DNA of 64,000 bases, from NCBI RefSeq assembly GCF_013328815.1, contig NZ_JABUHN010000005.1, forward strand, positions 124,001 to 188,000, read 5' to 3'. Within the stretch, counting starts at the first letter, position 1; each line of letters starts with the position of its first letter. The position numbers and the translations under genes are program-made. Positions 23,870 to 36,998 of this stretch are shown here, in pieces. Source of the DNA: Tabrizicola fusiformis (GTDB taxonomy: Bacteria; Pseudomonadota; Alphaproteobacteria; Rhodobacterales; Rhodobacteraceae). The notes under the pieces were generated by a model that saw nothing but the letters and a program-made list of their open reading frames with translations, was not told the DNA's origin and did not search any database.

Positions 23870-24730
23870 CTAGTGGCGGTGGTTGGCGGCAAGTGCGTCG
23901 GCGTGGCGGACTTCCAGCGCGGTCTTCAGCAACAGGGTAACGAGGGCCAGCAGGGTCAGAACCGCCGCCATGCTGAAGGCCGCAACCGACAGGTATTCGT
24001 TATACAGCATCTCGATGGTGATCGGCATGGTCGCGGTCTGGCCCCGGATCTTGCCGGAAACCACGGCTACTGCGCCGAACTCGCCCATAGCGCGGGCGTT
24101 GCAGAGCAGCACGCCATAAAGCAGCGCCCAGCGGATGTTGGGCAGGGTCACGGTCCAGAACACCCGCCAGCCGCTGGCGCCCAGCGTCAGTGCCGCCTCT
24201 TCCTCGGCCCGGCCCTGTTCGATCATCACCGGGATCAGCTCGCGCGCAACGAAGGGGAAGGTTACGAACATCGTGGCAATCACGATGCCGGGCAGGGCAA
24301 AGACGATGGGATAGCCCTGCGCCACCAGCCAGCCGCCGGCCAGCGAATTGGCCCCGAACATCAGCACGATGCAGAGCCCCGCCACCACCGGCGAGACCGA
24401 GAAGGGCAGGTCGATCAGCGTGATCAGGAAGGCTTTGCCGCGAAAGTCGAACTTGGTGATGAACCATGCGGCGGCAATGCCGAAGGCGGCATTCAGCGGC
24501 ACCGAAATTGCCGCAATCAGCAGCGTCAGCTTGATCGCCGACAGCGCATCGCGGTTGCCAAGGCTTGCCACGGCGGCGCCGATGCCCTTGGCCAGCGCCT
24601 CGGCAAAGACGGCAATCAGCGGGGCGGCCACCAGAACGGCGATGCCCGCCACCGCAAGCCCCGTCAGCACCCAGCGGGCGACGGGGGTTTCGGTGGTGAC
24701 GGGGCGGAAGGTGGGGGCGATGTCAAACAT
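23870..24730 (-). CDS. cysW: Sulfate ABC transporter permease CysW
   Basis: Inner-membrane permease, 286 aa, six membrane helices, with the EAA loop EEEAALTLGASGWRVFWTVTLP (about 165-185) and the family motif NARAMGEFGAVAVVSGKIRG. The ATG at 24728-24730 (MFDIAPTF) is used; it overlaps the end of cysT by 8 bases. It pairs with CysT in the channel. Confidence 0.93.
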   Translation of the reverse strand: MFDIAPTFRPVTTETPVARWVLTGLAVAGIAVLVAAPLIAVFAEALAKGIGAAVASLGNRDALSAIKLTLLIAAISVPLNAAFGIAAAWFITKFDFRGKAFLITLIDLPFSVSPVVAGLCIVLMFGANSLAGGWLVAQGYPIVFALPGIVIATMFVTFPFVARELIPVMIEQGRAEEEAALTLGASGWRVFWTVTLPNIRWALLYGVLLCNARAMGEFGAVAVVSGKIRGQTATMPITIEMLYNEYLSVAAFSMAAVLTLLALVTLLLKTALEVRHADALAANHRH

Positions 24731-25559
24731 ATCCGATCCTCCGGCGGCTCCAGACCTGAATGAGGTTGATGGCCAGCAACATGCCAAAGCTGATCAGAAG
24801 CATGGCAATGCCGATGGCGGCGGCGCCGTCATAGTTGAACTCTTCCAACTGGATCACGATCAGCAGCGGGGCGATTTCGGTCTTGAGCGGGATATTCCCG
24901 GCAATGAAGATGACCGAACCGTATTCCCCAACCGCCCGCGCCAGCGCCAGCGCAAAGCCGGTCAGCGCGGCAGGCATCAGCATCGGCAGAACCACCCGCC
25001 GCAGCGTGTAAAGGCGGCTGGCGCCCAGGGTGGCCGAAGCCTCTTCCACCTCGCGCTCGATCTCTTCCACTACGGGCTGCACGGTGCGGGTGACGAAGGG
25101 CAGGCCGACAAAGATCAGCGCAATGAAGATGCCCCATTGGGTATAGGCGATCTTCAGGCCCAACTCTTTGGCGATGGCGCCAAAGGCGCCGTTCGGCGCG
25201 TAAAGGGCTGTCAGCGCGATCCCGGCCACCGCCGTCGGCAGGGCGAAGGGCAGGTCAACGGCGGCATCCAGCAGCCTGCGGCCCGGAAAGCGGTAGCGCA
25301 CCAGAACCCAGGCCAGGATCACCCCGAACACCAGATTGAACAGCGCCGCAAAGAACGACAGCCGGAACGACAGGAAAAGCGCCGCCCAGACGCGCTCGCG
25401 GTTCACGGTGTCCCAGATGTTGCCAATGCCAAAAGTGGCGCCCTTCAAGAGAAGGGCGCCGATGGGCAGAAGCACGACAAGGGAAAGCATCGTGAGGGTG
25501 ATCCCCATGGACAAGCCAAGGCCGGGCATGGGGGATCGGTGGATCAGGGGTCTGCCCAT
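24723..25559 (-). CDS. cysT: Sulfate ABC transporter permease CysT
   Basis: Inner-membrane permease, 278 aa, six helices; DLPFALPTAVAGIALTALY and ARAVGEYGSVIFIAGNIPLK are CysT/CysU signatures, and EEASATLGASRLYTLRRVVLP is the EAA loop. It starts with ATG 9 bases after the cysP stop and overlaps cysW. Confidence 0.93.
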   Translation of the reverse strand: MGRPLIHRSPMPGLGLSMGITLTMLSLVVLLPIGALLLKGATFGIGNIWDTVNRERVWAALFLSFRLSFFAALFNLVFGVILAWVLVRYRFPGRRLLDAAVDLPFALPTAVAGIALTALYAPNGAFGAIAKELGLKIAYTQWGIFIALIFVGLPFVTRTVQPVVEEIEREVEEASATLGASRLYTLRRVVLPMLMPAALTGFALALARAVGEYGSVIFIAGNIPLKTEIAPLLIVIQLEEFNYDGAAAIGIAMLLISFGMLLAINLIQVWSRRRIGYV

Positions 25560-25568
25560 CAGGTCACC

Positions 25569-26687
25569 TTATTTGGGAACGTAGATCTGGTCGAAGATGC
25601 CGCCGTCGCCGAAGTGTTCGGGTTGAACCTTGGCCCAGCCGCCGAAGTGGGCGATGTCCACCAGTTCGATCTGCGGGAAGCGGGCCACATCCTCGGGGTT
25701 GGCCGCCGAAGCATCCCAGGCGCGGTAGAAGTTCTTGAAGGCGATGGCCTGACCTTCGGGGCTGTAGAGATAGTCCAGATAAGCGGTCGCAAGGGCGCGC
25801 TGCTCATCCGACTTGATGTTGCTTTCCACCAGAGCGACCGGCGGTTCGGCCAGAACCGAGACCGAGGGCACCACGATGTCGAACTGATCTTCGCCCAGTT
25901 CGGCCAGCGCCAGATAGGCTTCGTTTTCCCAGGCCAGCAGCACATCGCCGATGCCACGCTGGGCAAAGGTGGTGGTCGAACCGCGGGCACCGCTGTCCAG
26001 CACCGGCACATGCTTGAAGAGGTCGCCGACGAAGGTCTTGGGGTCTTGACCATTCTTTTCGGCCCAGGCCCAGGCGCCCAGATAGTTCCAGCGCGCCCCG
26101 CCCGAGGTTTTGGGGTTCGGCGTGATCACCTCAACCCCGTCGCCGATCAGGTCGCCCCAATCCTTGATGCCCTTCGGATTGCCCTCCCGCACCAGAAACA
26201 CGATGGTCGAGGTGTAGGGCGACGAGTTGTGCGGCAGCTTGCTCTGCCAGTCGGCGGGCAGTTTGCCCTCTTTGGCAATCTTGTCGATGTCCGAGGCAAG
26301 GGCCAGCGTGACCACCTGCGCCTCAAGCCCGTCGATCACCGCCCGCGCCTGGGCGCCGGAACCGCCGTGGCTGGCTTCGATGGTGGGGGCGGCATTTCCG
26401 AGCGATTCCCAATGTTTGGCGAAGGCTTCGTTGAATTCACGATAGAGTTCGCGGGTCGGGTCATAGCTGACATTCAGCAGGGTTTCGGCATGGGCCACCG
26501 GGGCCGCGCCGAAGGTGACCGCCGCCAGCGCCGAGAAGAGCCCGCGCAGGCTGCGGCGGCGCTGTTGCACGGGCCAGCCGGTCAGGTTGTGGCGGCCCGA
26601 GGCGATGGTGACGCGGCCATCGGGCAGTTGGTTCAGCTCAATGCCGATTTCGGTGCTGCCGTTCGGAAGGGTGATGGTGCGGATCAT
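25569..26687 (-). CDS. cysP: Sulfate-binding periplasmic protein with an N-terminal extension
   Basis: Periplasmic receptor for sulfate/thiosulfate. The mature part begins after AHA with [19 protein letters not shown], a CysP/Sbp signature; [14 protein letters not shown] and [11 protein letters not shown] follow. I chose the ATG at 26685-26687 (GGAGA 6 bases upstream), giving 372 aa. About 40 residues then precede a normal signal sequence ([17 protein letters not shown]...AHA). A GTG at 26568-26570 would start right at the signal peptide but has no ribosome site. The RRRSLRG stretch could be a twin-arginine signal with a long n-region. Second gene after the small protein at 26717. Confidence 0.9.
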
Positions 26688-26716
26688 GGGTGTCTCCGTT
26701 TGCAATGGGGCGTGGG

Positions 26717-27155: not shown

Positions 27156-27617
27156 TTACGCCTGCGCCGTTCCGAGCACCTGCTCTGCGACGGCGCCGGA
27201 GCGGAGCATGTCTTCGAGCGTGAGCGAGTCGATGATGACGAGGTAGGACCAGAACACCTCGGCAAAGACCTTGCGGATGCGGCAGCTTGCCTCGTCCACG
27301 CAGTCCTCGCAGCGTTGGTAGGCGCGGCGCGACAGGCAGGGCAGCGGCGCAATCGGCCCGTCGATGGTGCGCAGGAGTTCGGAAATTGACACTTCGCCGG
27401 GCGCCTTGATCAGGCTGTAACCGCCCGAGCGGCCGCGGATCGAGGCGATGATCCCGGCATTGCGCACTTCCAGCAGGATATGCTCGAGAAACCGCTTCGG
27501 CGTGCCGGAGCGCCGGGCGATCTCTTCGATCGTCAGCGGCTCGGGCCGCGGCTTGGCGGCCTCGTCGGCAAGGGTCAGCAGCGCCTTCAGCGCATATTTC
27601 ATCTTCTGCGTGATCAT
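27156..27617 (-). CDS. Rrf2-family transcriptional regulator
   Basis: A 153-residue winged-helix regulator of the Rrf2 family (IscR/CymR/NsrR relatives). The helix-turn-helix lies at about 28-53 (LTIEEIARRSGTPKRFLEHILLEVRNAG), then the wing IRGRSGGYSL (60-69). Four cysteines at 94, 103, 106 and 112 could hold an Fe-S cluster or sense redox/sulfur state. It lies 185 bases upstream of the sulfate-uptake operon on the same strand, so it is the probable regulator of that operon. Its ATG comes 6 bases after the -10, implying a leaderless mRNA. Confidence 0.88.
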   Translation of the reverse strand: MITQKMKYALKALLTLADEAAKPRPEPLTIEEIARRSGTPKRFLEHILLEVRNAGIIASIRGRSGGYSLIKAPGEVSISELLRTIDGPIAPLPCLSRRAYQRCEDCVDEASCRIRKVFAEVFWSYLVIIDSLTLEDMLRSGAVAEQVLGTAQA

Positions 27618-27664: not shown

Positions 27665-27691
27665 AAAAAACCGCGCCCCCACGGTGGTTTG
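27665..27691 (-). terminator. Weak terminator of the envelope operon
   Basis: Minus strand: AAACC, a 13-base loop and GGTTTTTT form a short stem followed by a U run, just after the stop of the zinc-ribbon gene. The short stem makes this uncertain. Confidence 0.35.
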
Positions 27692-27697
27692 ACCGCG

Positions 27698-28819
27698 TTA
27701 CCGGCCGTCGAACACGCCTTGCTCATTCAGGTAGAACGCAACCCCGGCAACGACCAGCACCGCCAGCACCGCGAAGGTGATCTTCCACACGCTCCACGGG
27801 CGTTCGCCGCGGACCTCGCCCGTCTGGCCGTTGACCAGAAACTGATAGCTTTTGCCGCCATATTTATAGGCCGCCATCCAGACCGGCAGCAGGATATGCT
27901 TGAAGGTTTCGTCCTGCCAATCGGTGTCGATGCTGTCCACCCGCTGCTCGTCGCCGCCGATGTCCTGGCGCACATCCCCGTCGATCACCCGTTCCATGTG
28001 GTCGCGGGCGCGGTCATGGCCATCGGCCAGCGCCAGCGTATAGCCCTCGGCCTGAAACCCGGCGAGGTAATCGGGGGAGTAGGGGGCAAGCCCCGCCAGA
28101 TCCCAGTTCGACAGCGCATTGCCCAGATGCTGCGGCACCCCGGTCGAGGCCATGACCAGCACATCGTCGAACCGCCGCGACACCCGGCCCGAGGCGCTGG
28201 ACCAACGGGTATGGCGGACCTGTTCCTGCCTTTGCTGGCGCTTGCCGTTGACCGTCACGGTGACGGTGCGGGTTTCGTAATAGTAATCGCCGCGCTGGCC
28301 GCGATAGCGGCTGTCGGTATCGGCATCGAAGGTCCAGTAGGGCACATAAATGCCGTTCAGCGCCCGGCCCTTGCGGGTGAACTCCAGCAGGCGGTTGGGC
28401 GCGAACCACAGGCTGCCCAGCCATGCCGTCAGCCGGTCGCGCGCCTCTTCCTCTTTCAGCACGAAAGGCACCAGCGCTTGCGGTTTCAGCCGGCGGTGGC
28501 TGCCGGTGTCGATCACCACCGGCGTGGCGCAGAACGGGCATTCCGTGGCATGGGCGGCGCCCTTGAACTCTACCACCGCGCCGCAAGACGGGCAGGAGGT
28601 GGAGCGCACATCCTCTTGCGCCGCTTCGGGCAGATCGTCGTCCAGCCCGCGCTCCAGCGGGATTTCCCCCAGCGCACGGGTCTTTTTCGGGGCCGAAGCC
28701 GCCGGAATGGCCTGAACAAAGCCGCAATGATCACAGGTCAACTCGGTCTGACCGGGCGTAAAGCGCAGGTCGGCACCGCACTGGGCACAGGGCCAGCGGT
28801 GTTCCTCGGTGACCGGCAT
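27698..28819 (-). CDS. Zinc-ribbon membrane protein (YdjG-like)
   Basis: A 373-residue protein with two zinc ribbons at the N-terminus, CAQCG...CDHCG (about 11-32) and CPSCG...CPFCA (about 76-97), a long soluble middle part (YVPYWTFDADTDSRY) and one membrane helix near the C-terminus (ITFAVLAVLVVAGVAFYL). Databases often call such proteins replication-factor-Y-like, but only the ribbons resemble PriA. The domain layout is like Bacillus YdjG, a membrane anchor that works with the SPFH protein YdjI. It follows the SPFH gene by 3 bases and is the last gene of the operon. Confidence 0.75.
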   Translation of the reverse strand: MPVTEEHRWPCAQCGADLRFTPGQTELTCDHCGFVQAIPAASAPKKTRALGEIPLERGLDDDLPEAAQEDVRSTSCPSCGAVVEFKGAAHATECPFCATPVVIDTGSHRRLKPQALVPFVLKEEEARDRLTAWLGSLWFAPNRLLEFTRKGRALNGIYVPYWTFDADTDSRYRGQRGDYYYETRTVTVTVNGKRQQRQEQVRHTRWSSASGRVSRRFDDVLVMASTGVPQHLGNALSNWDLAGLAPYSPDYLAGFQAEGYTLALADGHDRARDHMERVIDGDVRQDIGGDEQRVDSIDTDWQDETFKHILLPVWMAAYKYGGKSYQFLVNGQTGEVRGERPWSVWKITFAVLAVLVVAGVAFYLNEQGVFDGR

Positions 28820-28822
28820 CTG

Positions 28823-29926
28823 TCAGACTCCTGGCGGCGGGGGCGGCGGCACCATGGCGAAAAGCCGCGCCAGTTCGGTTTCCCCGGCGGGTTTCCAGCC
28901 ATCCTGCCCGGCGGCCCAGACCATGCTGGCCCGGGTCAGCGCGCCCGAAGCGGCCTGCGCGGCAAGATCGGCCTCGGTGAAGGGGCCCTTGGTGGCGCCA
29001 TTCTCGGCCAGATGCCACGCTTTGGCGGCGGCGGGCGGCGGCGGGGGTGGAGGCGCCGCGGCGGCGGCTGCCGGTGCGGCCCCCCATGGGCCGATGTTCT
29101 GCGCCATGCCCGCGCCGATGCCCGCCGCCATGCCCGCACCCATCATGCCACCCGCGCCCGTGGCGGGATTGCCCAGCGCCTCGGCCGCATTGAACTGCAT
29201 GTATTTGCCCAGATCGCCCGCCACGCCCATCGAGGTGCGCTTGTCGAGAACCTTTTCGACCTCTTCGGGCAGGCTGATGTTTTCAATATAGAATTCCGGG
29301 ATTCCCAGACCATATTCGGCCACTTTGGGCGCAATCGCCTGCACGATGATGCGGCCCAGATCGGCGGTGTTGCCCGCCATGTCCAGCACCGGAATGCCCG
29401 ATTTGGCAAGAACCTGCGACGCTTCCTGCACGATCACGTTGCGGATCTGGTTCGACACTTCATCCGAGGTGAACTCGCCATCGGTGCCGACGATTTCCTT
29501 GAGGAATTTGCCCGGATCGGCGACGCGCATGGAATAGTTGCCAAAGGCCCGCAGCCGCACTGGCCCGAATTCCGGGTCGCGGCACATGATCGGGTTCTTG
29601 GTGCCCCATTTCTGATCGTTGAAGCGGGTGGTATTGACGAAATAGATCTCGGACTGGAAGGGCGACTGAAAGCCGTGGTCCCAGTGCTGCAAGGTGGTCA
29701 GGATCGGCATGTTGTTGGTTTCAAGCATGTAAAGCCCGGGGCCGAACACATCGGCCAACTGCCCCTCATGCACGAAAACCGCCGCCTGCCCTTCGCGCAC
29801 GGTCAGCTTGGCGCCGTATTTGATGGCATTCCCACGCCGCTCGAACCGCCAGACCATCGTGTCGCGCGTGTCATCCAGCCACGAGATGACGTCGATGAAT
29901 TCGCCTTTGAGAAAATCGAAGACCAT
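28823..29926 (-). CDS. SPFH-domain protein with C-terminal GYF_2 domain
   Basis: A 367-residue protein of the YdjI/virion-core SPFH group. The SPFH/Band-7 domain covers about 20-245 (AVFVHEGQLADVFGPGLYML, then RLRAFGNYSMRVADPGKFL). A Gly/Met/Ala-rich linker with a long proline run follows, then a GYF_2 domain at about 308-352 (WHLAENGATKGPFTEADL, GWKPAGETELARLF). Such proteins form membrane-associated scaffolds; the GYF part probably binds proline-rich partners, possibly its own tail PPPPPPG. It is co-transcribed with the zinc-ribbon protein. Confidence 0.82.
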   Translation of the reverse strand: MVFDFLKGEFIDVISWLDDTRDTMVWRFERRGNAIKYGAKLTVREGQAAVFVHEGQLADVFGPGLYMLETNNMPILTTLQHWDHGFQSPFQSEIYFVNTTRFNDQKWGTKNPIMCRDPEFGPVRLRAFGNYSMRVADPGKFLKEIVGTDGEFTSDEVSNQIRNVIVQEASQVLAKSGIPVLDMAGNTADLGRIIVQAIAPKVAEYGLGIPEFYIENISLPEEVEKVLDKRTSMGVAGDLGKYMQFNAAEALGNPATGAGGMMGAGMAAGIGAGMAQNIGPWGAAPAAAAAAPPPPPPPAAAKAWHLAENGATKGPFTEADLAAQAASGALTRASMVWAAGQDGWKPAGETELARLFAMVPPPPPPGV

Positions 29927-29950
29927 GGGTTGCTCCTTCCCCGGATGGGG

Positions 29951-30883
29951 TCATGTTTCGCCGTCAACCAGCCGCGTTGCAAGCTCGGTGACGATGGGGC
30001 GGGCCTCTGCCTCGGTCATGCCGGGGCGCAGGGCGGGGTTGTAGAGGATGCGCAGCATCAGCTCGTCCATGCGGGTGAGCAGGGCAAACTCTTCGTCGTC
30101 GTTGAAGATCGAGGGGCGGGCCGAGGGGCTGTCATTCGGCAGGCCCAGACCTTGGGCGATTTCCTCATGCAGGCAGGACAGGCGCAAAAGGTCGGGATGT
30201 TCGGCCCGGATCACCGCAAAGGCGCGCTGATAGATGCCGGAGGTGCCCCGCGACTGCGCCAGCACGATGCAATAGGTCGAGCGGGGCAGATCGGTGATGC
30301 CCGCCACATCCTGCGGCGCAAGATCGGGCATCGCCGCGCGCAGCACCGGGCCAAGCGCGCGCCGCTCATCTTCGGACACGACATGGATCAGGAAATTCGG
30401 ATTGGCATCGTCCAGCCGGATCGGATGGCCGCTGGCTCGCGCCAGCCGCGCCAGATAGGAGGAGATGCGCGCGGTATCGGTCGCCCGCCGTTCCGCCGGA
30501 ACCGAGGCGCCAAAGCGCAGGCCCACCCGCACCGGCCCGTCCCAGCGGCGCAACTCGCCACTGGCAGACCCGGCGCCGCCGCGGTCGTATTCATCATAAA
30601 GCGCGATCCGCAGGAAATTCTCGGTCAGCATCCGCGCGGTGAACGGCGTGTCCGGCCCGCCGCCATCGGTGCGCAACAGCCCCTGCGACAGCAGCGCCTG
30701 TTGCACCTGCGCGTAATAGCCCCGGGCTGCGGCGCTGGCGGGGGTGTCTTCCGTCACCGGCGCCGGGGCTTCGGGCCGTGGCGGCGGTGTGGGGCTGCGC
30801 CCGGGCGTGGTCGCCACGCAGGCCGAAAGGGCCAGCGCGGCAACCGGCAGGGCAGAAAACAGGCGCAGCACGGCGGAAATCAT
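29951..30883 (-). CDS. DUF2927-domain lipoprotein
   Basis: A 310-residue exported protein. The N-terminus carries a lipobox (ALALSAC, cysteine about 22), so it is probably lipid-anchored. A proline-rich linker is followed by the DUF2927 domain: FTARMLTENFLRIALYDEY, RWDGPVRVGLRFG and CLHEEIAQGLGLPNDS (about 240-255). The HEE...GL pattern recalls a metallopeptidase-type zinc helix, and the domain may be hydrolytic, which is inference. Its ATG overlaps the telA stop (ATGA). Confidence 0.75.
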   Translation of the reverse strand: MISAVLRLFSALPVAALALSACVATTPGRSPTPPPRPEAPAPVTEDTPASAAARGYYAQVQQALLSQGLLRTDGGGPDTPFTARMLTENFLRIALYDEYDRGGAGSASGELRRWDGPVRVGLRFGASVPAERRATDTARISSYLARLARASGHPIRLDDANPNFLIHVVSEDERRALGPVLRAAMPDLAPQDVAGITDLPRSTYCIVLAQSRGTSGIYQRAFAVIRAEHPDLLRLSCLHEEIAQGLGLPNDSPSARPSIFNDDEEFALLTRMDELMLRILYNPALRPGMTEAEARPIVTELATRLVDGET

Positions 30884-32070
30884 GCCTCGGTCGCGCCTCC
30901 GACGGCCTCGCCAAAGCCGGTCTTGCGGGCGCGGGCGGCCGACAGCGTGTCGCGCAGCTCATGCTCCATCTTGATCAGGCTTTCCTCGGCGGCGGCGCGG
31001 CGGGCCTTGCCCTCATCCGCGATGGCAAGGCTTTCCTCGATCGTGTCGATCAGGCTGCTGTTGGCTTTCTGCACCGCCTCGATGTCGAACACGCCGCGCT
31101 CCATTTCCGTGCGCACGATGCGGTTGGCCTCTTGCAGGTTTTCCGCATTGGCCGTCAGCAATTCGTTGGTCAGATCGTTGGCATCCTTGATCGCCTCTGC
31201 CGCTTCCTTGCTGCGTTGGATGGTCACCGCCTGCGCAAGCTGGGTTTCCCACAGCGGCACCGTGTTCACGAGGGTCGAGTTGATCTTGCCGACCAGCGAC
31301 TTGTCATTTTCCTGCACCAGCCGGATCGAGGGCAGCGACTGCATCGTCACCTGCCGCGTCAGCTTGAGGTCATGCACCCGGCGTTCCAGATCGTCACGCG
31401 CCGAACGCAGGTCGCGCAGTTCCTGCGCCTTCTTCACCTGATCGGCCTCGGGGGCGGCCTGCACCTCGGCCTCTTTGGCCGGGATCACCGTGGCGTCGAG
31501 GTCTTTCAGCTTGGCCTCGCCCGCCGCGATGTAAAGCGCCAGCTCGTCATAGAAGCGCAGGGTCTTTTCATAGAGCAGGTCCAGCGACTTGATGTCTTTC
31601 AAGAGCGTATGTTCGTGCGTCAGCAGGTTTTCGGTGATCTTGTCGATCTGGCCCTGCACCTCTTCATACCGCGCCATGAACTGCGCCAGCGGGGCTGCGG
31701 CGCCCGTCAGACGCTCCCACCAGCTCCGCTCGCGGTTCACGTCCAGCTCTTCGCCGGAAAAGCCCCGGATGGTGGAAACGATGTCGCGCAGACTGTCGCC
31801 CGCCGGGCCGACATCCTTGTTCTTCACGCCCGACAGCATTTCCTGGCTGATCACCTGCAATTCGGCCTGCGCACCGGCACCGAAAGAGATGATCGACTGG
31901 GTGTTGGTCATGTCGATCTCGGCCATCCGCTTGCGGATTTCCTCGGCCTGCGGGGCGCTGGCCTCTTCCAGCGGAACAAGGGCGGTGCCGGGTTCGGGCA
32001 GGATGACGGCGGTCACCTTTTCCACTTCGGCAAGGGCGGTGGCGGCTTGGTCGCGGATGGTATCGGTCAT
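30880..32070 (-). CDS. telA: TelA-family protein
   Basis: A 396-residue cytoplasmic, mostly helical protein of the TelA (toxic anion resistance, KlaA/YaaN) family, using the ATG at 32068-32070. Family landmarks are FSGEELDVNRERSWWERLTG (about 105-124) and the long coiled-coil central part, then SIRLVQENDKSLVGKINSTLVNTVPLWETQLAQAV. The name comes from plasmid tellurite-resistance loci; most chromosomal homologues act in envelope or stress physiology of unclear mechanism. It follows xpaC by 35 bases, the same pairing as xpaC-yaaN in Bacillus. Confidence 0.88.
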   Translation of the reverse strand: MTDTIRDQAATALAEVEKVTAVILPEPGTALVPLEEASAPQAEEIRKRMAEIDMTNTQSIISFGAGAQAELQVISQEMLSGVKNKDVGPAGDSLRDIVSTIRGFSGEELDVNRERSWWERLTGAAAPLAQFMARYEEVQGQIDKITENLLTHEHTLLKDIKSLDLLYEKTLRFYDELALYIAAGEAKLKDLDATVIPAKEAEVQAAPEADQVKKAQELRDLRSARDDLERRVHDLKLTRQVTMQSLPSIRLVQENDKSLVGKINSTLVNTVPLWETQLAQAVTIQRSKEAAEAIKDANDLTNELLTANAENLQEANRIVRTEMERGVFDIEAVQKANSSLIDTIEESLAIADEGKARRAAAEESLIKMEHELRDTLSAARARKTGFGEAVGGATEA

Positions 32071-32105
32071 GGTCACTCTCACTATGGGTTTGCCCGCAGA
32101 GGGGA

Positions 32106-32987
32106 TCAGGCTTCCAGTTTAAGGCGGTCGCGCAACACCTGAATTTCAACATCCAGATCACTGTGGCTGTTGGCCAGAAGCGCTGTCGAGCGTTCGGCGA
32201 AGGTGGTTTCAAGATCGGTCAGCAGCGCCTCGTAATCGGCGCGCACCTTGGCATCGCGGGTCTGGGCGTAATGGTCGGCGAATTTCACCGTCGCGTCACG
32301 GGCGCCCATCAGATAGACCGACAGATACTTGCGGGCCGCCGTCAGATCGCCCGGATCGCCCTCGATCGTGCGGAACAACTGGCGGGCGGCCGTGGCAAAG
32401 CGGTCAACCCGGGCGTCGAGTGCGCGGTCACCCGCACGCAGGATGGCGTCCTTCATGGCCGACAGATATTTCTCGGCCTCGTCCACCGCACGCGCAACGC
32501 GGTCGGTCTGGAACTGGTCCACTCCTTCCAGCCCCTTGTCGCGCAGGGGATCGGGTCCGAAGGCCAAGAGATGCAGCCCGATGCCCAAAATTGCGAAGAG
32601 CAGCGGGTAAAGCGGCCCGTTCTGCGACACCAGCCCCCCCAGCGCCAGCGCCACGCCGATCAGCACGGCGCCGAACAGCTTGCGCGGGATCGCCGGGCGG
32701 CGGGCGACGCGGCGGGCGTCATAGGCGTCATGGGCCTTGACCCCCTCTTGCGTCAGCCATGCCGCCAGCAGGATCAGCCCGCCCGCGACAAGCGACAGCA
32801 CCATCTCGCGCGGGGTGCCGCGAAAGGCCGGGATCAGAAAGGCGAAGGCCGGAAAGAACAGGATGCGCGCCCGGCGTGCCGCACGGCTGGCAGGCACCGG
32901 GGGCGGTGCCGGGTGCGTCGCCGCCGAACCCGCAGGGGTATCCGGGGCGCCGGGGCTGTATTTGCCGCCAAAACGTTGTGCCATCAT
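32106..32987 (-). CDS. xpaC: XpaC-family membrane protein
   Basis: A 293-residue protein of the XpaC (5-bromo-4-chloroindolyl phosphate hydrolysis) family. A Pro/Ala-rich N-terminus, paired membrane segments (about 42-80 and 105-140) and a helical cytoplasmic C-terminal half (YLSAMKDAILRAGDRALDARVDR) match the family; no phosphatase motif is visible, so the historical name should not be taken as function. Two adjacent ATGs are possible (32987 or 32984); the first overlaps the stop of the tiny upstream gene as ATGA. Confidence 0.82.
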   Translation of the reverse strand: MMAQRFGGKYSPGAPDTPAGSAATHPAPPPVPASRAARRARILFFPAFAFLIPAFRGTPREMVLSLVAGGLILLAAWLTQEGVKAHDAYDARRVARRPAIPRKLFGAVLIGVALALGGLVSQNGPLYPLLFAILGIGLHLLAFGPDPLRDKGLEGVDQFQTDRVARAVDEAEKYLSAMKDAILRAGDRALDARVDRFATAARQLFRTIEGDPGDLTAARKYLSVYLMGARDATVKFADHYAQTRDAKVRADYEALLTDLETTFAERSTALLANSHSDLDVEIQVLRDRLKLEA

Positions 32988-33067
32988 GCGCCTCCGCTGG
33001 CCGCGACATAAAGGATCAGCGCCAGCAGCAGAAAGAACGAGACCGTGCGAAACCCGTTGGACGACAT
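32984..33067 (-). CDS. 27-residue single-helix membrane peptide
   Basis: A tiny gene with a strong site GCGGAGGTGCC directly before the ATG at 33065-33067. The peptide begins MSSNGFRTVSFFLLLALILY and ends VAASGGA: one membrane helix with a basic N-terminus. The stop overlaps the xpaC start (ATGA), so it looks translationally coupled. It has no recognised family; its position at the head of the XpaC-TelA-SPFH operon makes it a candidate subunit or regulator. Confidence 0.6.
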   Translation of the reverse strand: MSSNGFRTVSFFLLLALILYVAASGGA

Positions 33068-33211
33068 GGCACCTCCGCGCAAGACCGGCCGGACGGTTTG
33101 ACTATAGGCAAGGGGCCACGGCCTTGCCAGAGCCACGGGGGGGAAATCGGCGGGAATATTCCCCCTGCCGGTTTCGATGCCCGGACCGGGGCGCCCTTGG
33201 CCGATGGTGCT

Positions 33212-33265: not shown

Positions 33266-34045
33266 TCAGGCCAGCGCGGCCGCCTGCGGCAAGAGCCAGA
33301 TGCCCTTGGGCGGCGCGGTGTTCACGCAAAGCCGGCAGCGGTAGGCCGACGACAGCAGGGGGTCTGTCATCACCTCGGTCGGGCGGCCCGCCGCCACGAT
33401 CCGCCCGCCGTCCATCAGCACCATGCGGTCGGCGTGCATCGCCGTCAGGTTCAGGTCATGCATCACCGCCACCACGCCGCCCCCCGCATCGGCAAAGCGG
33501 CGCAGCAGTGTCATCACCTGCAACTGATGGCCGATGTCCAGCGCCGCCACCGGCTCGTCCACGAAGAGCCACGAGGGGCGACCGTCGCGCATCGGCTCCC
33601 AGACCTGTGCGCGGACGCGGGCGAGGTGGCCGCGCGCCTGCTCGCCGCCCGACATGTCGTGAAAGAAGCCGTCGATCTTGCGCGAAAGACCCACTTCGGC
33701 CACGGCCTCGTCCACGATGCCGGGGCGGTGGGCGGCATGGCCTGCCTCATGCCCCATCCGCACGATCTCGCGTAGCGTGAAGGGAAAGCCCACCGCCGTC
33801 GCCTGCGGCAGCACCGCCCGGCGCTGTGCCAAGGCGCGGGGCGCCATGGTGGCGGGCGTGTCGCCGTCAAGGCTGATCGCGCCTTGCCCCGCCAGATCGC
33901 CGGTCAGCATCCGCAAGAGCGTGGTCTTGCCAGAGCCATTCGGTCCGACGATGGCGGTGATCTGGCCGGGCTGCGCCTCGAAAGCGACATCCGACAGCAC
34001 CGGACGGCGGCCCAGCGATACGCTCAATCCGCTTGCCAGAAGCAT
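33266..34045 (-). CDS. hmuV: Hemin ABC transporter ATP-binding protein
   Basis: ATPase of the heme importer HmuTUV, 259 aa. Walker A GPNGSGKTT (about 36-44), signature MSGGEQARGHLARV (about 130), Walker B WLFVDEPVAALD, H-loop VAVMHDLNLTAMHADR. It starts with ATG, 3 bases after hmuU. Last gene of hmuRSTUV. Confidence 0.93.
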   Translation of the reverse strand: MLLASGLSVSLGRRPVLSDVAFEAQPGQITAIVGPNGSGKTTLLRMLTGDLAGQGAISLDGDTPATMAPRALAQRRAVLPQATAVGFPFTLREIVRMGHEAGHAAHRPGIVDEAVAEVGLSRKIDGFFHDMSGGEQARGHLARVRAQVWEPMRDGRPSWLFVDEPVAALDIGHQLQVMTLLRRFADAGGGVVAVMHDLNLTAMHADRMVLMDGGRIVAAGRPTEVMTDPLLSSAYRCRLCVNTAPPKGIWLLPQAAALA

Positions 34046-34048
34046 GGC

Positions 34049-35110
34049 CTAAATCTCCATCGTTGCGCGGCGCGCCAGCAGAATCCACAGGAAGACCGGC
34101 GCCCCGATCAGCGCCATGATGATGCCGATGGGCAGTTCGGCGGGCGAGACCACCAGCCGCGACACCGTATCGGCGGCAATCAGCAGGGCCGCGCCGAACA
34201 GGGCGGCGGTGGGCAACAGGCTGCGGTGGTCCGGCCCGATCGCCAGCCGCAGGATATGCGGCACCACGATGCCGACAAAGCCGATGCCGCCCGAGACCGC
34301 GACCGAAGCCCCGGTCATCGCCGCCACGATCAGGATGGCGCCGCGTTTCACCCCTTCGACCGGCACGCCCAGATGACGGGCCACGCCTTCGCCCAATGCC
34401 ATCGCATTCAGCCCCCGCGCCAAGAGCGGCGACAGCGCCAGCCCGGCGATCAGGATGGGCGCCGCCGCTGCCAGTTTGGTCCAGTTCGCCCCGGCAAGCG
34501 AGCCGAGGCCCCAGAAGGTCAGGTCGCGCAACTGGTTGTCATCGGCCAGATAGACCAGCACCCCGGTCGCGGCCCCGGCCAGCGCGCCCAGCACGATCCC
34601 GGCCAAGAGCATGGTGGCAATTGAGGTCTGGCCCCGCAGGCTGGCGACGCGGTAGAGGATCAGCGTTGTCGCCCAGCCGCCGAAAAAGGCGAAAAGCGGC
34701 ACCAGATACATGCCCGTTGCGGCATGGATCGCGGCGGGCATAAGGCCACCCAGCACGATGGCCACCACCGCGCCCAGACCGGCGCCGGCACCCACCCCCA
34801 CCAGCCCCGGATCGGCCAGCGGGTTGCGGAACAGCCCCTGCATCAGCGCCCCCGACACCGCAAGGCTTGCCCCCACCAGCGCGCCCAAAAGCAGCCGGGG
34901 CAGGCGGATGTCCAAGAGGATCGCGCGTTCCGCGGGCGAAAGGTCGCGGCTGAACAGCTCCCACGGCAAAAGGCCCGAGGCGCCAAGGCTCAGGCTGGCC
35001 GCCGCCGTTGTCAGCAGGATCAGCGCAAGACCCGCCGTCACCGCACCCACCTTGAGGCGTGGGGCGGTGACAGCGGTTGCCGGGGCCGCGGCGATTGCTG
35101 CGGTGGCCAT
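34049..35110 (-). CDS. hmuU: Hemin ABC transporter permease
   Basis: FecCD-family permease, 353 aa, about ten membrane helices; ASLAVSGALMQGLFRNPLADP (about 82-102) and VSGGIGFVGIVVPHILRL (about 273-290) are family signatures. It moves heme from HmuT into the cytoplasm. It begins 2 bases after hmuT. Confidence 0.93.
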   Translation of the reverse strand: MATAAIAAAPATAVTAPRLKVGAVTAGLALILLTTAAASLSLGASGLLPWELFSRDLSPAERAILLDIRLPRLLLGALVGASLAVSGALMQGLFRNPLADPGLVGVGAGAGLGAVVAIVLGGLMPAAIHAATGMYLVPLFAFFGGWATTLILYRVASLRGQTSIATMLLAGIVLGALAGAATGVLVYLADDNQLRDLTFWGLGSLAGANWTKLAAAAPILIAGLALSPLLARGLNAMALGEGVARHLGVPVEGVKRGAILIVAAMTGASVAVSGGIGFVGIVVPHILRLAIGPDHRSLLPTAALFGAALLIAADTVSRLVVSPAELPIGIIMALIGAPVFLWILLARRATMEI

Positions 35111-35112
35111 GC

Positions 35113-35955
35113 TCAGTTGCCCTTGGCGTAAAGGGCGGCGTTCAGGGCAAGGATCGCTTCGGGCGTGCGCGGGCCAAAGCCCAAAAGGAACATCCCCGGC
35201 ATCCGCACCACCCGTTTCGCCTGTCCGGCGGGCGTGGCCGCCAGCGCGGCATGGGCATAAAGCGGGTCGTCGCCCGGCATACCCGGGCCTTCGCTGCTTT
35301 CCATGGCCAGAATGATATCGGGGGCGGCGGCGGCCACCGCCTCATCCGTCAGGGCCTTGTAGCCGGCAAAGCCTTCGATGGCATTCACGCCCCCCGCAAG
35401 GGCGATCATCGCGGCGGCAGAGGTATCGCTGCCCGCGCCGGTCAGCCGCCCGCCCGAATTGCCAAGGACGAAAAGGACGCGCGGCTTCGGCCCCGGCTGC
35501 GCAGCAACCGTGGCCAGCGCCGCAGCGGTTTCGGCCTCGATCCGGGCGGCCAGTTCGGCGCCTCTGGCCTCTTGGCCCAGCGCCGCAGCCACCGCCTGCA
35601 CCTTGGCCTCCACGCCTTCGGGGCTGTCGGCGCCCGGGATGGTGACGATCTTCACACCGGCGCCTTCCAGCGTGGCCAGCGTTTCGGCAGGCCCTGCGCC
35701 CGCCTCCATCAGGATCAGGTCGGGCGAGACCGACAGAACCCCTTCGGGAGAAAGGGCGCGCATATAGCCCACATCCGGCAGCGCCTCGACCGCGGCGGGA
35801 TAGGTCGAGGTGGTGTCGCGCCCGACAAGCCGCCCCTCCTGTCCCAGCGCATAGACGATCTCGCTGACCGAACCGCCGATCGACAGCACCCGGTCCTGCG
35901 CGGCGGCGGTCAGCGGCAAGAGGGCCAGCGCCGTGGCAAGGAGCAGGCGGCTCAC
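35113..35955 (-). CDS. hmuT: Periplasmic hemin-binding protein
   Basis: Heme receptor of the ABC importer, 280 aa. The GTG at 35953-35955 is chosen: it overlaps the hmuS stop as GTGA and places the signal peptide (SRLLLATALALLPLTAAAQ) at the N-terminus. The mature part starts DRVLSIGGSVSEIVYALGQ, with VGRDTTSTYPAAVEALPDVG carrying the tyrosine region used for heme in HmuT/ShuT. Fold: TroA/helical-backbone binding protein. Confidence 0.92.
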   Translation of the reverse strand: MSRLLLATALALLPLTAAAQDRVLSIGGSVSEIVYALGQEGRLVGRDTTSTYPAAVEALPDVGYMRALSPEGVLSVSPDLILMEAGAGPAETLATLEGAGVKIVTIPGADSPEGVEAKVQAVAAALGQEARGAELAARIEAETAAALATVAAQPGPKPRVLFVLGNSGGRLTGAGSDTSAAAMIALAGGVNAIEGFAGYKALTDEAVAAAAPDIILAMESSEGPGMPGDDPLYAHAALAATPAGQAKRVVRMPGMFLLGFGPRTPEAILALNAALYAKGN

Positions 35956-36998
35956 AATGCCACCTCTTCTTCCAGCGCGGGCAGGTCGGCCACCAGCGCG
36001 TTCCACGCCGCAGCCGCCTTTTCCCCGGCGCGCAAAACGCCGAAAATCTGCGCGATCAGCGCGCCGCGCCCGTCAAAGAACTCGACGGAATGGGCCGGGC
36101 CGCGCTGGGTGTTCTTCACCACATGGTAGATTTCGGCGATGTGGTCCATCCGCAGATGCAGGTCAAAGCCGGGGTCCAGCACGTTGATCCAAGGGCCCAT
36201 CTCCACCACCCGCACAATCGGGCCGGTGTGAATTTCAATCGTGCCGGAATTGCCGACAAAGAACATGGTGGGCACGGCGGTTTCCGCCGCCCGCTTCATC
36301 AGCGTTTCCACCGAACCCGGCACCAGACGGCGCACGAAAGGCGCCCCGGCGATGCGATAGGCGCCCAGCCGGTTCATCTTGAGCCGGGCGGTCACGCGCA
36401 TGAACTGATGGGTGTCGGTCATCTCTTGCCAGTCATGGCGCAGCTCTTCGGCCCGGTCAGGGTTGCCCTTGGCGGCCTCGGGTGCGCGGCGCTGCTCGGT
36501 GATCAGGGTTTGCGACTGATCCTCCAGCGACAGCTCGGCCACCAGCGGCGCCCACGGGGCCACGTCGCTGTCGGCCCGCAGATAGACCTTGTGAACCGCA
36601 TCGCCCGCCGCGTCGAAGATCTGGAACGAGCGTTTCGGGCCGTTCGAACCCTCTTCCTCGACCGCGAAACCATGCTGCCAATGGCCGGGGAAAATCCGCA
36701 GGTCGATGGTTTCATTGACCACCAGCGCGGCATGGGGGCCGGGGCGATACTGGTCATAGACCCCGACCTTTTCGATCACGCAGCTTTCGTTGCGGGTCAG
36801 TGCCATCACCGGGCCAAAGGCGGTCAGCCGCGGCAAAAGCCCGTCGGGATGGGCGGCGATGCGGGTCGCGCCATGGCCGACATGGGCGGCAACAAGAGCA
36901 GCCTCGGAAATGCCCAAGGTTTGGGCCAGATCGCGCGCACGCGCCTTGGGGTTTTCGGCGCGGGCGGCGCGGATGGCCTCGGGGAAGGTCTGGGTCAT
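35952..36998 (-). CDS. hmuS: Hemin-degrading/heme-trafficking factor
   Basis: Cytoplasmic HemS/HmuS-family protein (348 aa) made of two repeated halves, each with a stretch of the type LRIFPGHWQHGFAVEE (first half, about 93-108) and LHLRMDHIAEIYHVVKN (second half). It accepts imported heme and helps release iron or hand heme on. It lies 59 bases after hmuR, from which it is separated by a GC hairpin, and overlaps hmuT by 4 bases. Confidence 0.93.
   Translation of the reverse strand: MTQTFPEAIRAARAENPKARARDLAQTLGISEAALVAAHVGHGATRIAAHPDGLLPRLTAFGPVMALTRNESCVIEKVGVYDQYRPGPHAALVVNETIDLRIFPGHWQHGFAVEEEGSNGPKRSFQIFDAAGDAVHKVYLRADSDVAPWAPLVAELSLEDQSQTLITEQRRAPEAAKGNPDRAEELRHDWQEMTDTHQFMRVTARLKMNRLGAYRIAGAPFVRRLVPGSVETLMKRAAETAVPTMFFVGNSGTIEIHTGPIVRVVEMGPWINVLDPGFDLHLRMDHIAEIYHVVKNTQRGPAHSVEFFDGRGALIAQIFGVLRAGEKAAAAWNALVADLPALEEEVAL

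Follow-up and report, generated by a model that had tools for sequence, protein, structure and literature searches.

In a 64,000-nucleotide (nt) stretch of the Tabrizicola fusiformis genome (contig NZ_JABUHN010000005.1, positions 124,001 to 188,000; the whole of this stretch is called the window below), six genes on the minus strand at 27698-33067 encode a 27-residue membrane peptide (ORF1), XpaC, TelA, a DUF2927 lipoprotein, an SPFH protein, and a zinc-ribbon protein, in this order. Our reading, to which we give a probability of about one half, is that they make up one transcription unit encoding an inner-membrane protection complex with a periplasmic arm. Judged by gene order and domain content, the operon is an XpaC–TelA pair joined to a YdjI/YdjG-like SPFH–zinc-ribbon pair, with DUF2927 as a separable addition. 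What is new here is the joining of two known kinds of gene pair in one operon, together with a new predicted fold assignment for DUF2927, namely that of the matrix metalloproteinases (matrixins). The set probably serves to shield the inner membrane when the envelope is stressed, as suggested by the relatives of the single parts.

Gene order and conservation of the operon

The first-pass annotation of this DNA had placed six tightly spaced open reading frames (ORFs) on the minus strand, and the coordinates confirmed both their places and their spacing. ORF1 overlaps XpaC by 4 nt and TelA overlaps DUF2927 by 4 nt; gaps of 35, 24, and 3 nt separate XpaC from TelA, DUF2927 from SPFH, and SPFH from the zinc ribbon, respectively. 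The proposed identities agreed with Pfam matches of the window proteins to Halogen_Hydrol/XpaC (1.7e-23), TelA (1.7e-105), DUF2927 (1e-63), Band_7_1 (4.8e-102), and GYF_2 (8.8e-17). The zinc-ribbon protein gave only sub-threshold zinc-ribbon matches; its four CxxC half-sites are invariant in 33/33 aligned members. The conserved start of TelA is the ATG at 32070, and a GTG lies upstream at 32082. The features, in the order of transcription, are as follows:

33137-33146, minus strand: C-tract TTTCCCCCCC, a possible regulatory element by its sequence, immediately upstream of the promoter-like site
33101-33130, minus strand: promoter-like site CTGGCA-18-TATAGT, 33 nt ahead of ORF1
32984-33067, minus strand: ORF1, 27-residue single-helix membrane peptide MSSNGFRTVSFFLLLALILYVAASGGA, an ORF conserved in relatives
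32106-32987, minus strand: XpaC-like membrane protein (PF10112, Pfam), conserved start MAQRFGGKYSPG, hydrophobic segments at residues 60-81, 99-117, and 124-145
30880-32070, minus strand: TelA (PF05816, Pfam), predicted all-helical, without a hydrophobic segment
29951-30883, minus strand: DUF2927 lipoprotein (PF11150, Pfam), predicted matrixin fold with replaced zinc ligands, lipobox LSAC
30131-30166, minus strand: predicted DUF2927 pseudo-active-site helix E240-E241-x-x-Q244-x-x-G247-x-x-N250-D251 (alignment)
28823-29926, minus strand: SPFH (Band_7_1) protein with a C-terminal GYF_2 domain (Pfam), without a hydrophobic segment
28880-29017, minus strand: GYF_2 domain of the SPFH protein, residues 304-349 (Pfam)
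28826-28849, minus strand: proline-rich C-terminal tail of the SPFH protein, PPPPPPGV (last columns of the alignment)
27698-28819, minus strand: YdjG-like double zinc-ribbon protein, CxxC half-sites, single C-terminal hydrophobic segment at residues 341-367
27670-27685, minus strand: terminator-like hairpin and T-run, 12 nt past the last gene

Sequence marks both ends of the unit, a promoter-like site lying ahead of ORF1 and a terminator-like hairpin beyond the zinc-ribbon gene, although neither type of site proves function; we propose that the six genes form one transcription unit. The scanned stretch held 3 promoter-like sites against 0.9 expected and 6 terminator-like sites against 4.7 expected, so the count of the latter is not enriched over shuffles. 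Upstream regions of 150 nt in relatives contained promoter-like sites of this type in 14/68 cases (shuffle mean 1.5, maximum 5), the first match of the same scan in the window's own region being a different, weaker-looking site. The pattern TTYCCCC, picked after the motif results had been viewed, occurred in 23/68 of these regions against 1.9 expected.

Conservation was examined in the Rhodobacteraceae, a large family of marine and soil bacteria. A scan of named genomes by SPFH similarity confirmed 578 places, and the best 80 of these, a set biased by being found and ranked in this way, were taken as named loci and searched with the window proteins. SPFH and the zinc ribbon were present in all 80, TelA in 76, DUF2927 in 75, and XpaC in 69. 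Conservation of the neighbourhood, which the first-pass annotation had named as a check, was found for the five large genes, which occur in window order in 68 of the 80 loci. Among the remaining 12, seven (L130, L131, L147, L166, L172, L189, L197) have no more than 2.4 kb between the SPFH gene and the end of the contig, so the cluster is cut there. The five real departures are two Paracoccus loci without XpaC (L143, L206), two loci with SPFH–zinc ribbon only and no TelA nearby (L173, Paracoccus caeni; L180, Rhodosalinus), and one locus without DUF2927 (L168). The genes overlap or nearly overlap in many relatives' clusters.

The second draw comprised 27 Rhodobacteraceae genomes chosen regardless of SPFH, which may overlap the first set. 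TelA was present in 26 of them, as a single copy in each, and within about 1.5 kb of it we found XpaC in 24, DUF2927 in 23, and SPFH in 20, a reach short enough to undercount SPFH. At the level of the class, a sample of about one genome per family (123 genomes, two from the window's own family) contained TelA in 12, XpaC in 8, DUF2927 in 16, and a strong Band_7_1 match (E <1e-70) in 6. XpaC, TelA, SPFH, and zinc ribbon were adjacent in genomes of three other alphaproteobacterial families (G204, G211, G264), where DUF2927 did not accompany them; in one of these, the partial genome G211, DUF2927 lies on other contigs. The first-pass annotation had counted DUF2927 in the set. Its absence beside TelA in these three families and in three Rhodobacteraceae loci marks it as a separable addition to a four-gene core.

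The smallest member of the set matched no family in a profile search, and the proposal that it is a gene nevertheless held up well. A hydrophobic ORF of 20-50 residues ending at the XpaC start was found in 66/68 loci (67/69 with a looser test), and the same test gave 0/72 at TelA starts, 0/72 at DUF2927, 1/80 at SPFH, 8/74 at the zinc ribbon, and 13/1600 at random positions. Likewise, XpaC was present in 17 of a set of 18 loci, and all 17 carried the peptide, that of L031 being read by eye. Peptide mismatch by codon position was 0.40/0.25/0.53 (53 peptides, crude anchoring), so substitutions follow the codon frame. By these sequence comparisons, the 27-residue peptide is a real conserved gene that accompanies XpaC, and three Paracoccus loci with TelA and without an XpaC match had no such peptide ahead of TelA. 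In Paracoccus denitrificans the locus holds TelA, DUF2927, SPFH, and the zinc ribbon, again with no match to XpaC.

Several observations weigh against a single complex. DUF2927 does not adjoin TelA in 3 of the 26 Rhodobacteraceae loci (L246, L257, L263); the three Paracoccus loci without an XpaC match are short of the peptide as well; and plasmids of Vibrio, Comamonas, and Tsukamurella carry the SPFH–zinc-ribbon pair by itself, so the two pairs are able to work separately. It is conceivable that XpaC–TelA and SPFH–zinc ribbon are two independent modules which, with the lipoprotein, are co-transcribed merely as low-level envelope housekeeping and share no machine. This would also suit L173 and L180, locus L037, which has XpaC–TelA–DUF2927 with the SPFH pair not nearby, and genome G160, where about 128 kb separate TelA from SPFH. 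However, the adjacency held in 68/80 named loci and three further families, with genes so often overlapping or nearly so, makes this account rather unlikely.

Some clusters contain extra genes inside the operon, located between SPFH and zinc ribbon (L038, L042, L045), between DUF2927 and SPFH (L032), or between XpaC and TelA (L034, L040). We take some of these to be cytochrome b561-like and DUF6338-like; others include an additional helical membrane protein, and the insertions may be accessory subunits. Upstream of ORF1 in relatives such as L188 and L198, four-base pairs spell TTCCCCCTAG, to which a regulator may bind. CTAG or CCTA with a CCTA 18-19 nt further along, as well as TTCCCCCTAG pairs, occurred in 15-17/68 upstream regions against a top shuffle count of 10. 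Directly downstream of the operon, a gene on the minus strand at 27156-27617 encodes an Rrf2-family regulator (PF02082, 1.5e-32), CymR/IscR/RirA-like and below all equivalog cut-offs listed; beside it, 24723-26705 holds what are presumably sulfate-transport-like genes. On the other side, 198 nt upstream of ORF1, the minus-strand genes at 33266-36998 (an ABC ATPase, a permease, a binding protein, and an HmuS-like protein) are, we assume, heme-uptake-like. A link between heme uptake and the operon was rejected, as 17-18 kb of sequence from each of 18 relatives showed no hmu-like genes adjoining the operon. Five ABC-ATPase matches in those relatives were 28-32% identical and more than 2 kb from the operon, and such a match occurred somewhere in the locus in 17/80 named loci.

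Predicted fold of the DUF2927 lipoprotein

DUF2927 was analysed with a narrow alignment of 51 rows (the window and 50 named loci, all Rhodobacteraceae) and a broad one of 13 diverse domains that includes distant families. The AlphaFold2 model, a prediction with a predicted local distance difference test score (pLDDT) of 91.1 and a predicted template modelling score of 0.84, was compared to known structures by two methods. The first 13 Foldseek rows were matrix metalloproteinases, with a probability of 1.00 and a best E of 1.3e-3, none reaching 0.001. Among the 50 rows shown, the three that were not matrix metalloproteinases were 1kuh, ADAMTS4, and one ATP synthase, the first two of which we take to be other metzincin-type proteases. 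With VIA-align 2, where models without a clear Foldseek match typically score Z 7-8, DUF2927 gave Z 11.7 against MMP-7 (root-mean-square deviation 2.6 over 147 residues) and Z 11.6 against karilysin, and all 50 rows shown were matrix metalloproteinases or karilysin. Additionally, hhalign aligned seven class matrixins with the 13 diverse DUF2927 domains at a probability of 81 and an E of 1.2e-5. In the printed alignment, His-Glu-x-x-His-x-x-Gly-x-x-His lies over E240-E241-x-x-Q244-x-x-G247-x-x-N250, which is the register that had been fixed beforehand.

Three sequence-level results speak against this assignment: the narrow Rhodobacteraceae profile reached an hhalign probability of only 0.4 (E 0.14) against matrixins, hmmsearch with the DUF2927 alignment retrieved no matrixin from the PDB sequences, and PF00413 was not matched by any of the 13 diverse domains at E up to 10. 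The positive hhalign result thus depends on the choice of the broad alignment, which was built to take in distant families. Taken with the structure comparisons, DUF2927 is predicted to take the matrixin fold.

The HExxHxxGxxH zinc motif itself is not found in DUF2927, as Glu, Gln, and Asn stand in place of the ligand histidines and no row among the 51 and the 13 has a histidine at any of the three positions, and the Met-turn methionine is missing, the matrixin Met aligning with Ser258 of PSIFN in the printed alignment. The residues of this site are highly conserved: E240, E241, Q244, and D251 are each kept in 51 narrow and 12 broad rows, G247 in 51 and 13, and N250 in 50 and 11. The first-pass annotation had described a HEE-type helix; H239 is kept in 49/51 rows and in only 4/13 diverse rows, with V, L, A, or I in the other nine, so that description gives way to E-E-x-x-Q-x-x-G-x-x-N-D, which is kept in 11-13 of the 13 at each position. 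The conserved replacement residues at the ligand sites argue for a retained binding role, and we read DUF2927 as a predicted lipid-anchored pseudo-protease that binds rather than cuts.

Could the protein still be an active metalloprotease with an unusual metal site, processing an envelope substrate? The predicted fold, the general-base Glu position (E241), and the oxygen-rich set E240, Q244, N250, and D251, which might accommodate a hard metal (calcium or manganese, for instance), would allow it. With no histidine at the three ligand positions in any row and the Met-turn methionine out of place, we regard such activity as highly improbable, and an active zinc protease was rejected on the ligand positions.

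As for its location, the lipobox LSAC of the window protein is matched by a lipobox pattern in 67/72 relatives, whose gene starts were picked with the lipobox in view, and the putative lipid site Cys22, assigned by motif, is invariant in the 51 rows. The following residue is Val, which by the Lol rule would favour the outer membrane. Cys205 and Cys237, kept in 51/51 and 13/13 rows, probably form a disulfide, as expected in the periplasm. A second DUF2927 domain (G000:C34:221549-222154, L081) lies in a 642-residue open frame with the motif CLHEEMAQALGPLND, and a majority of the order's genomes carry at least two copies of DUF2927. DUF2927, hitherto just a number in the searched literature, thereby gains a predicted fold and a reading as a metalloprotease scaffold used for binding.

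Proposed mechanism, tellurite and PspA

The GYF_2 domain of the SPFH protein scored 61.1 bits against a cut-off of 25.8. All 80 named relatives' SPFH proteins have a GYF-like signature pattern and PP within the last ten residues, and in 37/80 the last three residues are P-G followed by A, V, I, L, M, or F. The GYF domain and the proline-rich tail also occur together in the SPFH proteins of Vibrio, Tsukamurella, and three other alphaproteobacterial families. Three SPFH proteins seen without GYF, those of Comamonas (HTH_17), Enterococcus (zinc ribbon), and G160 (sub-threshold SHOCT), are also without the proline tail. Eukaryotic GYF domains bind proline-rich peptides, and self-assembly of the SPFH protein through GYF gripping a neighbour's proline tail is an attractive idea that this co-occurrence would suit. 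The C-terminal module varies by lineage (GYF, HTH, SHOCT-like, zinc ribbon), the Comamonas protein (L236:7995-9095) ending in HTH_17, not GYF.

The zinc-ribbon protein shows full-length homology (26% identity, E 3e-39) to an Enterococcus gallinarum protein encoded between SPFH and TPM genes. That arrangement, SPFH–zinc ribbon and then TPM, corresponds to the YdjI-YdjG-YdjH set, with the zinc ribbon at the YdjG position. The window protein is called YdjG-like by its CxxC sites, its C-terminal segment, and this homologue. SPFH and zinc-ribbon proteins have also been noted in archaeal ESCRT loci (PMC10936438).

We envisage the following arrangement. Much as YdjG/H do for YdjI, the zinc-ribbon membrane protein would dock the SPFH protein, soluble itself, at the membrane, where the latter would assemble into a scaffold, perhaps by the GYF contacts described above. 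XpaC and the small membrane peptide, a candidate regulator or anchor, would hold helical TelA at the inner face. On the periplasmic side, a lipid anchor would keep DUF2927 in place, with the outer membrane as its probable site. There this pseudo-matrixin may bind a ligand, be it peptides, the wall, or a lipoprotein, leave it uncut, and thereby sense or tether the outer envelope. Extended to the whole family, this becomes a tentative hypothesis, possible though not one we would count on: that DUF2927 pseudo-matrixins with an oxygen-ligand site (Glu, Gln, Asn, Asp; hard metal or none) act in the periplasm as sensor or tether for an SPFH–TelA–XpaC–peptide scaffold independent of PspA, which polymerises by GYF–proline-tail contacts and, throughout the Rhodobacteraceae, couples repair of the inner membrane to the outer envelope. 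The suggestion of the first-pass annotation that the genes form one stress or remodelling system is plausible.

The structure prediction adds little on TelA. Its model has two long helices (130-209 and 212-290) and a poor pLDDT of 69, and its best fold matches were ClyA-type helical bundles (Z 12.3, within the helical-protein background); both points count against the proposed complex. Rows for F-BAR (two), N-BAR (one), and an ESCPE-1 coat (one) came up with E values no better than 0.16. The matches listed did not include PspA, which says nothing either way. TelA as an ESCRT-III-like or BAR-like protein was set aside, as the fold searches were uninformative.

The family name of TelA raises the possibility of a tellurite or toxic-anion resistance operon, in which the other genes would help TelA exclude oxyanions or mend the damage. 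A review lists the Rhodobacter sphaeroides telA among chromosomal tellurite determinants, citing O'Gara 1997 (PMC6955997). The single TelA in each of 26 Rhodobacteraceae genomes suggests that it is probably this gene. Nevertheless, the telA (lmo1967) mutant of Listeria, as cited in a later paper, was 4-fold more sensitive to nisin and only 2-fold more to tellurite, and the same source describes induction of the Listeria xpaC-telA pair by bacteriocin (PMC12791056). No transporter or reductase is found among the six genes, and the presence of TelA in 26/27 sampled family members would speak against a specialised resistance. We consider a tellurite operon unlikely. TelA and XpaC are widespread proteins with misleading names (tellurite resistance and bromochloroindolyl phosphate hydrolysis), and their fixed place beside a YdjI/YdjG-like pair in most sampled family members would tie them to membrane protection. 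The operon is a genetic system whose parts can be removed singly, which makes the role of TelA directly testable.

Regarding PspA (PF04012), the first-pass annotation had described the set as lacking it. This is correct for the scanned operon products and for the window's whole genome, where none was found, and does not extend to a general trait: PspA is present in 48/149 genomes of the order (47 over the cut-off) and in 19/123 class-level genomes, and it coexists with the operon in G033, G018, and G147 (loci L046, L049, L045). Because of this frequency and coexistence, a strict replacement of PspA by the operon was ruled out. The reading that the operon replaces the PspA system, with TelA taking over the membrane-coat work of PspA, draws on the absence of PspA from the window genome and from all 5 class-level genomes with clustered XpaC-TelA-SPFH, and on a comparable Bacillus operon that holds PspA, YdjG, YdjH, and a band-7 protein, as described in a survey of phage shock protein partners (PMC11237479). 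Given the frequency of PspA in the order and the carriers of both systems, we find this reading improbable.

Comparison with known systems

Among 5.39 million openly licensed papers, most subscription papers being outside that scope, no paper was found that combines TelA, XpaC, and SPFH, that names DUF2927, or that brings together three of five related terms. The first-pass annotation had likewise called the set not described for this group to its knowledge. The survey of phage shock protein partners covers the B. subtilis ydjF operon, and its main text names neither TelA nor XpaC (PMC11237479). The closest system is B. subtilis pspA-ydjGHI, where YdjI with YdjG/H brings PspA to the membrane and YdjI is called likely soluble (PMC8581546). 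Both systems place a PF13421 SPFH protein that itself has no membrane segment beside a two-zinc-ribbon protein with one hydrophobic segment, and PF13421 also matched in the B. subtilis control. In contrast to that operon, the present one is without PspA, and no TPM (YdjH) match was found among the seven window proteins scanned. Its SPFH protein ends in GYF and a proline tail, whereas YdjI ends in a zinc ribbon, and the pair is joined to XpaC, TelA, DUF2927, and the microprotein.

Homologous SPFH and zinc-ribbon proteins in the same order occur as pairs in Vibrio, Comamonas, and Tsukamurella and as SPFH–zinc ribbon–TPM in E. gallinarum, all in plasmid records. Unlike in the window, XpaC, TelA, and DUF2927 are not among their annotated neighbours or tblastn matches. 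With the matrixins (MMPs and karilysin; PF00413), DUF2927 shares the predicted fold, the active-site helix and its spacing, and a last helix of the form L(S/T)xxD...LY. It differs in having Glu, Gln, and Asn for the zinc histidines, in lacking the Met-turn methionine, and in having an extra N-terminal helix, the conserved Cys205 and Cys237, and a predicted lipid anchor. Finally, the XpaC–TelA pairs of Firmicutes (Listeria lmo1966-lmo1967 and, presumably, xpaC-yaaN of B. subtilis) consist of the same adjacent PF10112- and PF05816-type genes, whereas in the window the 27-residue membrane peptide precedes the pair and the DUF2927, SPFH, and zinc-ribbon genes follow it.

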